Shown here piece after piece: positions 2,951 to 11,407 of a stretch of DNA of 11,407 nucleotides (within the stretch, counting starts at the first letter, position 1; every line of letters begins with the position of its first letter). This stretch comes from a bacterium (GTDB lineage: Bacteria; SZUA-79; Acidulodesulfobacterales; Acidulodesulfobacteraceae). The position numbers were made by a program, and so were the translations under genes. Under the pieces are notes generated by a model that was not told where the DNA came from, made no database searches, and saw only the letters and a program-made list of their open reading frames with translations. Where the stretch lies: contig JAKACI010000027.1 in the NCBI GenBank assembly GCA_021821565.1, positions 1-11,407 of the forward strand. The letters run 5' to 3'.

Positions 2951-3190
2951 ATGCATGAACTTTCAATAGCTTTAGGAATATTGGAAATGCTTGAAAAAAA
3001 TAACTATTTGAAAGATATAAAAATAGTTAAAACTATTAATTTGACGATTGGAAATTATTCAGGGATAGATAAAAATTATTTGGAATTTGCTTTTCAAAAT
3101 TTAGGAGACAATAGATTTAAAATCGTTATTCTTGATTGCAATTATAATGAAACCGATGATATTAAAGTTAATGAAATTATAGCAGATTAG
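2951..3190 (+). CDS. hypA: HypA-type nickel chaperone lacking the zinc-ribbon domain
   Basis: HypA delivers nickel to the [NiFe] hydrogenase large subunit together with HypB. The N-terminus MHELSIALGILEML carries the family's nickel-binding His2 and Glu3, and LTIGNYSGIDKNYLEFAFQNL matches the core fold. The protein is only 79 residues, where the family is usually about 110-120, and has no CxxC pairs; its only Cys is in ILDCNY. After the strand FKIVILDCN it passes through a short YNETDD linker to a final strand IKVNEII that resembles the usual last strand. The zinc ribbon thus looks cleanly excised, not lost by C-terminal truncation. The 93 bp after the stop contain no CxxC codons in other frames, so a frameshift does not explain it. 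The start has no clear Shine-Dalgarno sequence. hypB follows 93 bp downstream. Confidence 0.85.
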   Translation: MHELSIALGILEMLEKNNYLKDIKIVKTINLTIGNYSGIDKNYLEFAFQNLGDNRFKIVILDCNYNETDDIKVNEIIAD

Positions 3191-5257: not shown

Positions 5258-5332
5258 GCGGGAATAGCTCAGTGGTAGAGCATCACCTTGCCAAGGTGAG
5301 GGTCGCGGGTTCAAGTCCCGTTTCCCGCTCCA
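5258..5332 (+). tRNA. tRNA-Gly (anticodon GCC), CCA encoded
   Basis: A complete cloverleaf. The acceptor strands are GCGGGAA (5258-5264) and TTCCCGC (5322-5328), with discriminator T and encoded CCA at 5330-5332. The D-arm is AGCTCAGTGGTAGAGC, and the anticodon stem TCACC/GGTGA closes the loop TTGCCAA, giving anticodon GCC (Gly). The T-arm is GCGGG-TTCAAGT-CCCGT. The gene is the apparent integration site of the element on its right: the recombinase gene's stop codon begins six bases after the CCA. Confidence 0.97.
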
Positions 5333-5338: not shown

Positions 5339-6435
5339 TCAAGGGTTTGACAGTTTCGATAATTTCTTATCTTCTTCAGAGGTAAGAAAAAGGTAAGACT
5401 TCTTGTTAAGAACACTCACGGCATTTTTAATATGAGCGTGTGATAAATGAGAATATCTTAGGGTCATTTTGATGTCTTTGTGTCCCAATAATTCCTTCAC
5501 GGTTACCAGGTCAATCCCTTTCATAATTAACTGGCTTGCGAATGTATGGCGCAAGTCGTGAAACCGAAAATCCAATATATGCGCGATCTACGGAGCGCCG
5601 TTGAAAAACTCCGCTTGAAGTTGTCATAGGGCTTTAATGTTTTAGGATTAAAGAACACGTAAGGCACATCCAACCGCCTGACAATAGAGCTTAAAGCCTC
5701 ATAGAGATTATCATTAATCGGAATTTCCCTGCGGTCGCCATTTTTTGTGCGGTCAAGCAGGATAATCCGATTAAGCAAATCAACACGATCCCAAGTTAAA
5801 TGGAGAATTTCCGATTTTCTCATACCGGTATTTAGAGCCGTAACGACAACGGGTTTCAGATAAGGCTCGCAGTTCGATATAAGTCTGTCCGCCTCTTCGT
5901 CTGATAAATAGCGCAGACGCTTAATCTCGCCTTTTAAAAGTTTAACCTTTCTTACCTTTTTAAGCGTATCTTCATTAATCATTTCCCAATCTAAAGCCTT
6001 AGTGAACATGTGCTTTAAAACGGCAATCATCTTATTTGCGTATGCGGGCTTAAAATCTTTTTGGATGCAGTATGTCTGCAAGTTTTCCAAGGTATTGTAA
6101 TTAAAATCGGTTATTCTCATTTTTTTAAACCGTTCAGGAATAACGTTAATAATAGATTTTTTTTGGCTATAAGATTTTTGCCTGCCTTTTACCCATGACA
6201 AATACCTTTCCGCAAGTTCGTTAAAATAAACGGCTGTTTCGGCGGCGGGTTTGATATCTATCTTTTTAACGACTCCGCCGTTATCTACCTGTTCCCTTAG
6301 AGCCGAAGACCATCGCTCGTAAGTAGCCTGAGCCTCCGTTTTGTAATTGGTTTCGGCTGATTTGAAATACTTAATGCCGTTAATGCATTTTGTCATCATA
6401 AAGTATTTAGAGCCTTTCTTCTTGTAAATGCCCAT
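5339..6435 (-). pseudogene. Tyrosine recombinase (phage-type integrase), frameshifted
   Basis: An Arg-His-Arg-His-Tyr site-specific recombinase split in two frames. The first part (6435 to about 5579) has an N-terminal arm-binding-like region, a core-binding region at about 68-165, catalytic R206 in TGMRKSEIL and K231 in DRTKNGDRREIP. The second part, in another frame down to 5339, holds HDLRHTFAS (HxxR), LLGHKDIKMT (His) and RYSH (Tyr). The frames meet at an ATATAT tract at 5575-5580. Removing one AT unit gives SRI-LDFRFHDLRHTF, an uninterrupted protein of about 364 residues, normal for the family. The start ATG overlaps the upstream gene's stop (TAATG), with AGGAGGTGC just before it. It lies next to tRNA-Gly, as an element-borne integrase should. 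It is probably inactive as written unless the frameshift is an assembly error or is bypassed. Confidence 0.88.
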
Positions 6436-6674
6436 TATTTATTGCACCTCCTCAGGTGGGCATTCACGCTTGTTTCAGGTATTATATCATGGGAATTTTT
6501 TTCAATCCATGAATTAATTTTATCCCTGTCGAAGCGTTTAGTCCTGCCAATCGAAACAAAGGGGATTTGACGGTGATAGCAAAGATAGTAGACCGTATTG
6601 ATGTTCAGCTTAAGCAGTCGTGCAACATCCTTTACGGTCATAAATTCTTTTTTGTCTATCCTTTCTTTATCCAT
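6435..6674 (-). CDS. Excisionase/AlpA-like helix-turn-helix protein
   Basis: A small (79-residue) DNA-binding protein of the MerR-like excisionase (HTH_17) type: MTVKDVARLLKLNINTVYYLCYHRQIPFVSIGRTKRFDRDKINSWIEKN at about residues 12-60 carries the helix-turn-helix and the IPFVSIGR-RF wing. Proteins of this type direct excision or regulate the integrase in integrated elements. It has a GGAAGG-like Shine-Dalgarno sequence before ATG 6674-6672. Its stop overlaps the recombinase start by one base, so the two are translationally coupled. It starts 42 bp after the end of the upstream recombinase, suggesting one transcript for all three genes. The exact role (excision or transcriptional control) is inferred. 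Confidence 0.85.
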   Translation of the reverse strand: MDKERIDKKEFMTVKDVARLLKLNINTVYYLCYHRQIPFVSIGRTKRFDRDKINSWIEKNSHDIIPETSVNAHLRRCNK

Positions 6675-6716: not shown

Positions 6717-7643
6717 TTATTTCCCGATATAAGTACGGGCAATGCTTTCCCTTGAGTGTCCAAGTTCTTCGGAAATAATCTTGCAGGCCTTATCATAGAG
6801 GGATTTTTCCAGTGGACTCATGCCAGTATATCTCAGACCGCCGGCAACAGGGGCTTGTAGTCCCGTTATAGAGAGATACCTTTCTTGCGCGTAGGAATGG
6901 CGCAAGGCGTGGGGATGCAATAATTTATTATTATCAATCCTTTTCAACTCCTTAAATGCCCTGTCTAACCTTCCTCTGAACTGTTCAAGCCTGCCCTTGA
7001 TTTCAAAGTCTTTGACAAGAACCGCCGCTTCTTTTAAGATATTTCCGCCGTCCCGCATTGCGAACTTTCGGGGTCTGCCGTTTTTGCACCACGAACCCTG
7101 AAGTTTTAAATTTCCGTTGACCGTGATATTACGACCCTTACTTAGCGCCCATACTGAATGCAAGGCTTCGTCCCGCCTTAGACCGTATGCGGCGATAAGC
7201 ATAACAGCTGCCAAAACTCCTTTGTCTTTGATAGATGACAAAGCCTTTTTCGATATCGCGGGACATCCTTTATTAACATTTGCGGAATTTAAAACGTCCC
7301 TGCCTATACTTATTCCAAGCTCGGCATTGCTGAGAACAGCCTCCGTGTTGTTCGCAACGGTAAGAATTCCCCTTAAGATCGTCGCTTTATTCTGCATAGT
7401 TCCGACCGAATACTCCTTTTCTTTCCAGTGTTCGGATAACTTAAGAGAATCTTCTTTTTTAATAGCCGTTGCGCTGGTAAATTTCGTGTTAACCTTATAA
7501 CCCAAATCCTTAAAATCCGCCGCTATTGCCTGAGATTCTTTTCTGATGTTAAACCTGCTTTTGTCTGATAACTGGTGCAATCCGTCCCGCAATCTTGTTT
7601 CCACGTGTTTTGCGTAATACATTAAATTATGTTTTAAACTCAT
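6717..7643 (-). CDS. Tyrosine recombinase, Integrase_1 family
   Basis: A second site-specific recombinase of 308 residues, intact. The N-terminal half (about 1-115) is the SAM-like core-binding domain. The catalytic domain has R156 in AAYGLRRDEAL, H245 and R248 in HALRHSYAQERY, H296 in ELGHSRE and Tyr305 near the C-terminus (ARTYIGK). The TG-QAPVAGG-then-MSPLEKSLYDKACKIISEELGH arrangement is typical of the proteobacterial integrative-element family (PF12834/PF12835), not of the lambda-like recombinase next to it. The start ATG 7643-7641 has a strong GGAGG at 7655-7651. The base composition is richer in G+C than in the chromosomal genes. Because the neighbouring recombinase is frameshifted, this may be the working enzyme, or it may act on a different site. 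Confidence 0.9.
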   Translation of the reverse strand: MSLKHNLMYYAKHVETRLRDGLHQLSDKSRFNIRKESQAIAADFKDLGYKVNTKFTSATAIKKEDSLKLSEHWKEKEYSVGTMQNKATILRGILTVANNTEAVLSNAELGISIGRDVLNSANVNKGCPAISKKALSSIKDKGVLAAVMLIAAYGLRRDEALHSVWALSKGRNITVNGNLKLQGSWCKNGRPRKFAMRDGGNILKEAAVLVKDFEIKGRLEQFRGRLDRAFKELKRIDNNKLLHPHALRHSYAQERYLSITGLQAPVAGGLRYTGMSPLEKSLYDKACKIISEELGHSRESIARTYIGK

Positions 7644-8264: not shown

Positions 8265-9047
8265 TTAGGTTAAACGGGCTTTTGATATCGTACGAAATAG
8301 ATAATCTTCTAAGTTGCGTTTGCGGGTTTGAATATCTGGACTCTCGTTCATGAGTATCTGTCTGATATTCTCGTCTTGCAATCTGCAAAACATTAAAAGA
8401 TATTTTGCATAGCGGATATCGGTTAAACTTTTGTCGTTATTAATGACGAAGTCTTTCCAATGTTTTTGTTGTTTTTTTGGATTACTTCCGGCGGGTTTGA
8501 AATTAAATTTTTGTTTCAAGAGTTGTTCTTTATAGAAAACCCCCACTTTTTCAAGAACAAGATTAAAATCAAGAACCGGCTTGTAATCTACAATGCTGAC
8601 TATAGGCTTGTCCGGGTATTTCTGATTTGCAAATCCCGGCAGCCTTCTTGGCTGCAAGAATCCGGAAGCGCCTATGTCGCAATGGTAGAACTTAACCATT
8701 GCTTTTTGGAGCATCGTTAAATTGCCGTTATAATTTCTCGGTAGCGGTATGTGGCATTGATACGAACTGCCGCTTGTTTCGATAATTACTGTGTTAAAAG
8801 GCAATTGGTCAAAATTTTTGCAATCAAAGTCGTCAAGAAAGATTATTTTGGATGACGCAGGCGGTATAAAATATATTCCATTACCTTGCGCCTCAAGATA
8901 TGTAGCTCTTTTGAGATTAAACTCTTTAACTGAATTTACAGACTGAAGCTCGAACCTGCCTTTGCTACCAATAACTTGGACAGATAAAGGCGGATTATAG
9001 AATTCAAGCATAATCTTCAATCCCGTTAAGACGATAGCGGTCTCCAT
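8265..9047 (-). CDS. RepB-type primase (archaeo-eukaryotic primase fold)
   Basis: A 260-residue protein matching the RepB_primase family, which makes primers for mobile-element replication. Visible signatures are the acidic motif IIFLDDFD at 68-75, ETSGSSYQCHI at 90-100 and QPRRLPGFANQK at 132-143. A C-terminal helical region at about 205-258 has the family's alternating basic/acidic pattern (DIRYAKYLLMF, then RKRNLEDYLFRTISKA). The start ATG 9047-9045 has an exceptionally strong Shine-Dalgarno sequence, AAGGAGGTGAT (9064-9054), six bases away. The typical plasmid partners (a helicase RepA and initiator RepC) are not next to it, so it may rely on host or phage functions. The composition is richer in G+C than the chromosomal flank. 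It is divergent from the defence-like genes at 9820. Confidence 0.82.
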   Translation of the reverse strand: METAIVLTGLKIMLEFYNPPLSVQVIGSKGRFELQSVNSVKEFNLKRATYLEAQGNGIYFIPPASSKIIFLDDFDCKNFDQLPFNTVIIETSGSSYQCHIPLPRNYNGNLTMLQKAMVKFYHCDIGASGFLQPRRLPGFANQKYPDKPIVSIVDYKPVLDFNLVLEKVGVFYKEQLLKQKFNFKPAGSNPKKQQKHWKDFVINNDKSLTDIRYAKYLLMFCRLQDENIRQILMNESPDIQTRKRNLEDYLFRTISKARLT

Positions 9048-9284: not shown

Positions 9285-9819
9285 TTGAGGAGATTTTTAT
9301 ATTACTCTATCCCTTGAATGCTTATGATTAGCAGGATTAACTTGAATAGGAATAAACTTTTATAGGATGTAAGTTGAGATTAAAATTTAGGTAAAACTAT
9401 TATTATTATAATTACTATCGAAATTTAAAAGGCCATATCATTTTACGGCATCACTTTTTATTTAGATAATAATATTAAAGGCTTTTATGTTAAGTTCTGC
9501 CTTATTAAAGTTTCCAATTTGGCGAACAATTCCAAAATTGGGCTTATCTCGGTTGCAAGGTCTTAAGCTAAGTGCGCTTGCCTTGCTGCGTCTTAAAATA
9601 GAATCTTCGACGCCGGCGCACGACAAAAATGTTTAACCCATAATAGGCAGCATCAACATTCAAGCTATCGTTGAGTGACCAACGACAAGTCAATTTAATA
9701 TATTTATTATATCATAAAAAAAATAAACGTAAAATAATTTTTAAAATTTTATTAATTTAGTTATAATAACCATATGTTGTAATTTTATACAATTTTATAT
9801 AAAACGGATACAGAAAACC
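9285..9819. other. Non-coding divergent region with a GC-richer block at about 9520-9690
   Basis: No acceptable ORF is seen. Roughly 9520-9690 is richer in G+C than its surroundings. It contains pairing arms CCAATTT/AAATTGG (about 9513-9539), a GCCGGC palindrome near 9613 and TCGTTG-AGTGAC-CAACGA (9668-9685). It could be a small RNA gene, a dispersed repeat or a dead gene remnant. Closer to the downstream gene, TTGTA-ATTTTA-TACAA (9777-9792) is a possible operator overlapping AT-rich promoter-like sequence. Confidence 0.5.
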
Positions 9820-11091
9820 ATGCAATTATTTCTCTTGATAACATTGATAGCATACTTATTGCTTTTATTTTTTTTATCTTGCCCGCTTTTACTTTCTATT
9901 CCATTTGTTCCAAATATATTAAAAAGACAAATAAAAAAAATTAACGATTATTTTTTCGGTGGAATAAAATTTTTATTTAACCCCGTTAATTTATCCAAAC
10001 ATTTATATAATATAAAAAATTACAGATATGGTAAGGGATATCTGGTAATTGTATATATTATTTTTTGGATACTATATCTATTTTTATTTTTTTCTCCTTT
10101 AATATTAGTTTTATTTGGTGAATCAACTTTAGTTGCTATATCGGCATTACTGCTGTCAATATGTTTTTATTTATTTAATGTATCAGCAAATAAAACCAAA
10201 CTTACCGCTTTTGAGGATAATAAAAAAAATGTTAAATTAAATATACAAAATACTTCAAGCGAAAGTGAAGGATTATTTGATAATAATTCAAGAGTTGATA
10301 TGCAAAAAAAAATTGTTAAAAATTTATGGATTAATAAACTTACTAAAGAGCTTAACTATCCTCCGGATAAGATATTATCTGATGTAGTTATTTCTAAGTT
10401 TTCGGATAAAATAGGAAAAATAGATGTTGCCGTGTTTAAAGACAGTGAAAAAAAGTCGTATTTTATAATCATTGAAATTAATACCGAAATTAAAAAACAA
10501 TTCGATTTACATAAATTATTATTAAAATTAGACATAACCGGCGCTAATTATGGCATTTGGTCTGACGGTCTTATCGCAAAAACTATTTATAATGATTTTA
10601 AAGGCAAAAAAGAGGTTTTGGGAATTCCCCGATATAAAGAAATGGAGCAAAACACTAATATTATGGAGGAAATTAGGAATATTGAGGAATATTCGACTTT
10701 AGATACTATCTCTGATACTACTGAGCGTTTTGAAAATGCTGAGCAAAATATAAATATAAACTTAAGTTATGATAAAATTCAGGAAAGCGAAGAAGTAGAT
10801 AATCTTGGCAACGATAATCCGGTAAAAGACTTATTGGGTGTATTTGGAATTTGCGTCAAACTTTTAAATTATTTGGATGGAAAACAATACTTAAATAAAA
10901 AAAGCTTTGAAATGTTTATAAAATCTGAAATAAACGATAAACTTATGCCGAACGGGATATTAGAAAATATAAACGAGTACACGTCAAAAAAATTTGGCGA
11001 TACCTTGCTTGAAGAAGGAGACGATCCTGACTACATTTACATTAATGAATATATAAAGGAGGATGTATTAAATGATATCCGAAAACAGTAA
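9820..11091 (+). CDS. Membrane protein with HSDR_N-like and TerB_C-like domains (Shango-type candidate)
   Basis: 423 residues in three parts. Hydrophobic segments at about 3-29, 73-99 and 100-121 should place it in the inner membrane. Residues about 165-260 (LTKELNYPPDKILSD, KIDVAVF, YFIIIEINTE, GANYGIWSDG) follow the pattern of the N-terminal nuclease-fold domain of type I restriction R subunits (HSDR_N). D202 and E219 sit where acidic residues are expected, but the ExK lysine is Asn221. A charged linker follows. Residues about 335-415 (LMPNGILENINEY, FGDTLLEEGDDPDYIYIN) match the TerB_C pattern. The ATPase gene overlaps its 3' end by 20 bp and has its own Shine-Dalgarno sequence. TerB-domain protein next to this ATPase is characteristic of Shango (SngA-SngB), but this membrane/HSDR_N form is not the one I know. 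The domains are pattern matches by eye; the function in defence is inferred. Confidence 0.7.
   Translation: MQLFLLITLIAYLLLLFFLSCPLLLSIPFVPNILKRQIKKINDYFFGGIKFLFNPVNLSKHLYNIKNYRYGKGYLVIVYIIFWILYLFLFFSPLILVLFGESTLVAISALLLSICFYLFNVSANKTKLTAFEDNKKNVKLNIQNTSSESEGLFDNNSRVDMQKKIVKNLWINKLTKELNYPPDKILSDVVISKFSDKIGKIDVAVFKDSEKKSYFIIIEINTEIKKQFDLHKLLLKLDITGANYGIWSDGLIAKTIYNDFKGKKEVLGIPRYKEMEQNTNIMEEIRNIEEYSTLDTISDTTERFENAEQNININLSYDKIQESEEVDNLGNDNPVKDLLGVFGICVKLLNYLDGKQYLNKKSFEMFIKSEINDKLMPNGILENINEYTSKKFGDTLLEEGDDPDYIYINEYIKEDVLNDIRKQ
11056..11062 (+). promoter_or_regulatory. Shine-Dalgarno AAGGAGG for the ATPase, inside the upstream gene
   Basis: AAGGAGG lies nine bases before ATG 11072 and within the last codons of the upstream ORF. 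It supports this start and coupled production of the two proteins. Confidence 0.85.
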
Positions 11092-11407
11092 GATTAAGAA
11101 AAATGTTAAAAATTCATTAATTCAGTCTTTAAGGGCGGGGTTAGTTCCAAGCGTCGGACTCGAATATATACAGGTTGGCCGTCAAAAAGAAATTGAAGCC
11201 GTTTCAAACGACATAAAATCAATAGCCGAAGGCGGAAACGCTTTTAGATTAGTTATTGGAGATTACGGATCTGGGAAAACTTTTTTCCTGAACATTGTGC
11301 AATCTATCGCAAGACAAAATAATTTGGTTACAGTATATGCGGAATTAAATCCAAATCTGCAAATTTACAGCACCGATGGAAAGTCTAAAAAACTTTATAC
11401 CGAGTTT
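11072..11407 (+). CDS. BrxD/SngB-type P-loop ATPase (DUF2791), N-terminal part (runs off right edge)
   Basis: The first 112 residues of an ATPase. SLRAGLVPSVGLEYIQVGR (19-37) is the conserved opening of the family. FRLVIGDYGSGKTFFLN (58-74) contains the Walker A motif GDYGSGKT (63-70), and an acidic strand, VYAELNPNLQIYSTDGK, follows. This is the DUF2791-type protein called BrxD in type 2 BREX and SngB in Shango, which in both is usually next to a helicase gene. The gene overlaps the upstream TerB_C protein by 20 bp. Walker B and the rest lie outside the window. The family is confident; the system depends on what follows. Confidence 0.9.
   Translation, partial: MISENSKIKKNVKNSLIQSLRAGLVPSVGLEYIQVGRQKEIEAVSNDIKSIAEGGNAFRLVIGDYGSGKTFFLNIVQSIARQNNLVTVYAELNPNLQIYSTDGKSKKLYTEF

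Follow-up and report, generated by a model that had tools for sequence, protein, structure and literature searches.

Shango is an anti-phage system in which SngA, a protein of the TerB type, is followed by the ATPase SngB and the helicase SngC, and bacteriophage exclusion (BREX) type 2 makes use of a BrxD/BrxHI pair whose ATPase belongs to the same family, PF10923. SngC and BrxHI are placed in one potential helicase clade in PMC12278908. No description of the Shango mechanism was found in the available portions of PMC10250203, PMC10952713, PMC11096173 and PMC12278908, nor of an SngA with a swapped N-terminus in the titles and abstract openings of the open-licence literature, where no paper combining two of TerB, HSDR_N and DUF2791 was found either. 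The locus considered here lies at the right end of a window of 11,407 nucleotides (nt), the whole stretch of DNA analysed (contig JAKACI010000027.1 of assembly GCA_021821565.1, from a bacterium of the Acidulodesulfobacteraceae), where two overlapping genes encode an SngA-like protein, hereafter the A protein, and an SngB-like ATPase. An earlier note, made from the sequence alone, had proposed a variant of Shango. The analysis points, with moderate confidence, to a defence module of the Shango type whose SngA retains its tail but carries a membrane part and a nuclease-dead HSDR_N domain in place of its body (TerB_N and TerB), SngB being kept as well; a role of the pair in phage defence is presumed from these resemblances.

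The A protein (423 amino acids; 9820..11091, + strand) consists of membrane helices, an HSDR_N domain and a TerB_C tail, as delineated by the list of open reading frames (ORFs), Pfam, PADLOC, hydropathy and profile-profile comparison. The ATPase gene (11072..11407, + strand; Pfam, PADLOC) is represented by its first 112 residues and is open at the window end. The two genes overlap by 20 nt, and the ribosome-binding site of the second, AGGAGG (11057..11062, +), stands within the first, 9 nt upstream of the second ATG; a translationally coupled operon may be inferred. Both ORFs bear out the earlier observation of two overlapping genes, one for a protein with transmembrane, HSDR_N-like and TerB_C-like parts and one for a DUF2791 ATPase. 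A relative of the A protein, P0002 (429 amino acids, 79% identical over the full length), represents 12 member sequences on 2 contigs in a public metagenome set, the longest contig having 3854 bases.

The second protein matches BrxC_BrxD (PF10923) in Pfam with an expect value (E) of 2.2e-35, and its Walker A motif, GDYGSGKT (11258..11281, +), follows a G-x-Y-G-x-G-K-T pattern common to 9 of 9 sequences in the alignment, so the ATPase seen earlier stands. It is also of the Shango type, as had been claimed, being SngB-like rather than BrxD-like: with the PADLOC models, the 112 residues score 131.9 bits against SngB (E 8e-39) and 65.8 bits against BrxD (E 9.9e-19). The NCBIfam BrxD model, of whose roughly 440 residues the fragment supplies only 112, yields 63.5 bits (cut-off 350). 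The window SngB is matched by 688 plasmid records, each at less than 60% identity and mostly from Klebsiella and Salmonella, a biased sample, of which 541 are predicted to be conjugative. In seven of the eight plasmid loci read (L001-L005, L007 and L008), a TerB-type SngA of 771-1267 amino acids is followed by SngB and then by a DEAD/DEAH helicase. In the remaining locus, L006, SngB adjoins Tn3 genes and no SngA is annotated.

The link of the A protein to SngA is provided by its tail (residues 334-423; 10819..11088, +), which is homologous to the SngA C-terminus by Pfam, PADLOC, profile comparison and AlphaFold model. Pfam finds TerB_C (PF15615) at residues 357-413 (E 1.9e-5, 25.4 bits, slightly below the cut-off), the PADLOC SngA model aligns its positions 460-523 of 528 to residues 348-416 (E 6.1e-6), a TerB_C profile built here matches at E 7e-7, and comparison with 19 SngA tails in hhalign gives a probability of 95.6% (E 1.2e-8); in the AlphaFold model the block means of the predicted local distance difference test over the tail are 80-95. 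TerB_N and TerB, in turn, are absent by Pfam and by profiles built here (E 1e-3), and an NCBIfam scan of the A protein gave no match. With TerB_N and TerB absent and the SngA tail kept, the body of SngA has therefore been replaced. At the N-terminus, three membrane helices are predicted by a simple hydropathy window (residues 3-21, 80-98 and 103-121; membrane part, residues 3-121, 9826..10182, +) and appear as helices in the AlphaFold model; the lysine/arginine-rich loop at 35-72 and the segment past 121 suggest that the remainder of the protein would be cytoplasmic. By the same method, a helix starting within the first 150 residues is predicted in 53 of the 78 compared SngA proteins that reach 600 amino acids or more, and because of this the proposal that the variant newly places a Shango module at the membrane cannot be upheld; the anchor looks like a retained SngA feature.

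Between membrane part and tail, residues 164-276 (10309..10647, +) form an HSDR_N domain with the PD-(D/E)XK core fold and an eroded active site, as judged by Pfam, alignment and profile comparison. Pfam assigns residues 165-257 to HSDR_N_2 (PF13588; E 5.3e-8, 33.4 bits, above the cut-off of 25), profile-profile comparison with 10 HSDR_N_2 domains gives a probability of 95.0% (E 3.7e-8), and the PADLOC model of a type I methyltransferase covers residues 163-309 (E 5.2e-9); the profile searches that the earlier note had suggested thus match for TerB_C and HSDR_N alike. Of nine residues invariant in the 10 comparators, two are kept (D202 and E219). The catalytic D...E-x-K is broken, N221 occupying the position of the invariant Lys, and E-x-N is found in both the window and P0002, whereas E-x-K is present in 13 of 13 HSDR_N_2 matches; the other invariant columns, namely both helix E, the third E (now D), Q, Y and N, are changed as well. 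Because two of nine invariant residues remain and the catalytic Lys is Asn, the domain is probably not a nuclease, and the identity of the D, E and N active-site positions between the window and P0002 argues for a loss that has been maintained. By eye in the alignment, the most similar domain is that of L120, an HSDR_N_2 in fusion with a type I DNA methyltransferase, where the motifs D-x-x-x-F, IIIE, TGAxxxxWS and PR follow one another as they do in the window. In the window, however, Asn stands for the catalytic Lys, most other invariant positions are changed, and the fusion partners are membrane helices and a TerB_C tail in place of the methylase. Since the domain is closest to the methyltransferase-fused kind and has lost most active-site residues, "sensing" would seem to suit it better than "restriction". 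The earlier claim that the TerB subunit was replaced by, or fused with, a restriction-type sensing domain accordingly stands as regards the replaced body and retained tail, and less well as regards restriction.

Compared with Shango, the locus has the same gene order, the same N-terminal membrane helices and TerB_C tail, and an SngB-type ATPase directly after and overlapping the A protein. However, TerB_N and TerB are missing and HSDR_N stands in their place, the A protein has 423 amino acids against 616-1380 in the 78 long SngA proteins, and any SngC would lie beyond the window end. The likeness to BREX type 2 consists in the ATPase family and, according to PMC12278908, in potentially related helicases; the BrxD score is half that of SngB, and no BREX partner was recognised in the window. 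A further comparison is offered by L126 (63-5010; from the phylum sample of G001), in which SngB (E 1.3e-144) and SngC (E 5.9e-229) come after an A protein that has TerB and TerB_C behind a repetitive stretch and two predicted membrane helices. It resembles the window in its membrane N-terminus, absence of TerB_N, TerB_C tail and adjoining SngB, but retains TerB, lacks HSDR_N and has SngC. In the L126 A protein, a repeated ALTKRETELNHTKAMLTVREAEL-like stretch occupies the place where TerB_N would stand.

What is new is the existence of other SngA replacements besides that of the window. In L041 (9222-11290), an A protein with solenoid-like repeats (weak, under Pfam cut-offs) and a TerB_C tail precedes SngB. 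L111 (566-4291) encodes an A protein identical to P0011, with an IF2_N front, then SngB, then an SngC-type helicase (E 7.6e-207 against SngC) cut at the contig end, and in L112 (344-3451) SngB is followed by an SngC-type helicase fragment, likewise cut at the contig end and 89% identical to that of L111. The A proteins of L041, L111 and L112 (257, 312 and 386 amino acids) have no predicted membrane helix and bear differing mosaic fronts, and their SngB proteins, from one proteobacterial genus, are 80-88% identical; in the genus of L041, this SngB occurs in 3 of 18 genomes. The fronts of L041 and L112 have a common solenoid (53% identity over 116 residues), while the L111 front resembles them over weaker stretches only (33% over 104, 36% over 33 and 44% over 27 residues). 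A search with the L041 tail returned 14 proteins of 251-442 amino acids, whose tails are alike because the tail was the query. The fronts are not all alike: Pfam, applied to 10 of the 14, finds YdcK-type solenoid repeats (above the cut-off in P0009 only), LRV repeats (P0008), sigma70 region 1.1 (P0007, E 1.4e-18; P0010, E 3.7e-16) or IF2_N (P0011, E 6.2e-7), or else TerB_C alone. Seventeen rows, including two near-duplicates, give 136 tail pairs, all of which are at least 60% identical. Once the duplicates and the linker are taken out, similarity at E 1e-3 is seen in 41 of 105 front pairs, in 28 of these over most of the shorter front. Common pieces connect the fronts of 13 of the 15 rows, so that the fronts are mosaics.

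Among other SngA loci, L102 (3996-7688) has SngA and SngB followed by an alcohol dehydrogenase-like gene (by eye), with no adjoining helicase, and in L089 (8072-9988), on a viral contig, a resolvase-like stretch is fused in frame at the start of the SngA body (by eye). L127 (4146-5642) and L128 (7954-9171), from two genomes of one phylum sample, encode TerB_N- or TerB-TerB_C proteins that lack an adjoining SngB-like ORF and lie between frr- and pgsA-like genes (by eye).

Replacement of SngA is uncommon: one clear variant, L041, was found among 80 genome loci, these being the best 80 of at least 569 relatives of the window SngB and not a random sample. Across 88 A proteins, profiles built here and derived from six of the 88 rows detect TerB_C in all 88, TerB in 83 and TerB_N in 79. 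The set comprises 77 proteins from the 80 genome loci (three loci had no called A ORF), seven from plasmids, and those of the window, L111, L112 and L126, which were put in because they are variants. Nine proteins lack the full domain set, namely the five variants (window, L041, L111, L112 and L126) and four short ORFs, L013 and L069, which are cut at contig starts, and L021 and L081. A tree of 90 SngB N-termini, 83 of them different, was built from 112 columns and leaves many forks unresolved. On it the five variants require three label changes, and they are never brought together in 200 bootstrap trees; the strongly supported branches require at least two changes. The L126 SngB is a long branch whose exact place is unsure. 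In three phylum samples, TerB_C matches were found in 12 of 398 genomes (11 above the cut-off), 11 of 247 and 14 of 235; among these matches, those in open frames below 600 amino acids were read together with L101 and L102, in 10 loci besides L009 and L081.

A model may be proposed in which the A protein would be held on SngB by its TerB_C tail, HSDR_N, in the cytoplasm, would bind DNA without cutting it and so serve as a detector, and SngB, as an AAA+ switch, would then engage an SngC-type helicase, expected just past the contig end, which would act on invading DNA. The tail would be a constant plug, and the N-terminal part would set the location of the complex and what it detects; a membrane anchor combined with a non-cutting restriction-type domain could allow the complex to read DNA as it enters at the membrane. 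Several points weigh against this model and the Shango assignment on which it is built. The Pfam score of TerB_C is 0.9 bits below the cut-off of 26.3, and the SngB gene runs off the window end, so that no SngC is in view; nor can SngC be assumed, as no helicase is present among the ORFs in the 6 kilobases after SngB in L041. In the tree, which has few columns, the window SngB sits on a long branch (2.53 changes per column) and its position is unsure. A frameshifted integrase adjoins the pair, and the ORF list, Pfam, PADLOC and NCBIfam revealed no further gene of known defence function in the window. A search of solved structures by sequence (A protein, one SngA, an SngB profile) gave no match, and the docking of tail on SngB is inferred. 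Finally, the membrane/HSDR_N/TerB_C architecture has just two known representatives, the window's protein and P0002, which comes close to the single occurrence that the earlier note had counted against its own proposal; however, other SngA replacements with SngB and SngC do exist.

Four other explanations may be considered. HSDR_N could be an active nuclease effector with relocated catalytic residues, held at the membrane, to which SngB (and a helicase) would deliver DNA; this is unlikely in view of the E-x-N of the window and P0002 against the uniform E-x-K of the HSDR_N_2 matches, and of the changes in the helix E, third E, Q, Y and N columns. It is just as unlikely that the pair has lost its function and is in decay, on an element that is itself degenerate, an explanation favoured by the frameshifted integrase, the long SngB branch and the cut window; however, both frames are open, the 20-nt overlap and ribosome site are clean, and P0002 is an open relative. 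That the pair belongs to a BREX-like or other BrxD-type system, and not to the Shango kind, would be consistent with the single Pfam family of SngB and BrxD and with the shared clade suggested for SngC and BrxHI (PMC12278908), but an SngB score twice that of BrxD, the SngA tail and the lack of a recognised BREX gene in the window make it slightly less probable still.

TerB-family proteins are linked to stress responses, and the pair could conceivably form a cellular module for DNA maintenance or stress with no phage link, as the L127 and L128 proteins, with no SngB-like ORF beside them, might indicate. However, the patchy distribution of TerB_C in the phylum samples, the SngB relatives on (largely conjugative) plasmids in the biased sample above, and the integrase neighbours render this very improbable. 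Returning to the Shango-type module with a replaced SngA body, TerB_C is read here as a putative fixed connector to SngB, with an exchangeable front. A broader and distinctly tentative extension is that SngA could be a modular receptor, in which the TerB_C plug serves an SngB/SngC engine and different detectors are swapped in front, including, as bait, pieces of host proteins that phages might target (sigma70 region 1.1, the IF2 N-terminus) or a nuclease-dead DNA-binding restriction domain. Phage proteins are linked to sigma70 region 1.1, and it is a matter of speculation that the sigma70 region 1.1 and IF2_N pieces act as bait for phage proteins. If SngA were such a receptor, Shango would correspond, in bacteria, to immune receptors whose domains are interchangeable or act as decoys. 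If the tail alone couples varied fronts to SngB and SngC, the natural swaps would separate a constant engine from a variable front and show where detection and where action should be probed; the versions with sigma70 region 1.1 and IF2_N point to concrete targets for monitoring by the front. Systems of this kind would be missed by annotation rules requiring TerB_N or TerB.

The earlier claim that the pair rides on an integrated element agrees with the tyrosine recombinases that adjoin it at a tRNA-Gly (gcc) gene (5258..5332, +; ARAGORN). This tRNA lies 7 nt from the integrase ORF and is likely the attachment site; no further copy of 12 or more of its bases was found within the window, which leaves the far end of the element out of view. 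The tyrosine recombinase next to it (5339..6435, -) is frameshifted into two overlapping frames, 5339-5575 and 5527-6435 (PF00589, E 2.8e-13 for the latter). The block also holds a small HTH_17/excisionase-like protein (6435..6674, -; PF12728, E 2.8e-12; TIGR01764, E 4e-9) and a second tyrosine recombinase of the Integrase_1 type (6717..7643, -; PF12835, E 1.6e-6), matched by 88 plasmid records at less than 60% identity, the ten listed being 29-32% identical. A RepB-type primase (8265..9047, -; PF16793, E 4e-7; PF22448, E 5.9e-6) had no match among plasmid records. Ahead of the operon stands a weak sigma70-like promoter match, TTTAAA-16-TATAAT (9740..9767, +; 10 of 12 positions); counting both strands, the region has 21 matches of this kind, where shuffled sequence gives 15.4 on average. 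The left part of the window carries hydrogenase genes, a large-subunit-like one at 3-698 (by eye) and a small subunit at 803-2305 (NCBIfam), together with hypA- and hypB-like genes and an endonuclease IV gene (NCBIfam). The HypA-like ORF (2951-3190), next to hypB, matches only model positions 1-50 of 116, below the cut-off, and stops early. The small hydrogenase subunit ends C-terminally in a long run of lysine-aspartate (KD) repeats, and an ORF on the opposite strand (810-1193) is a mirror image of this KD-repeat gene and not likely a real gene.
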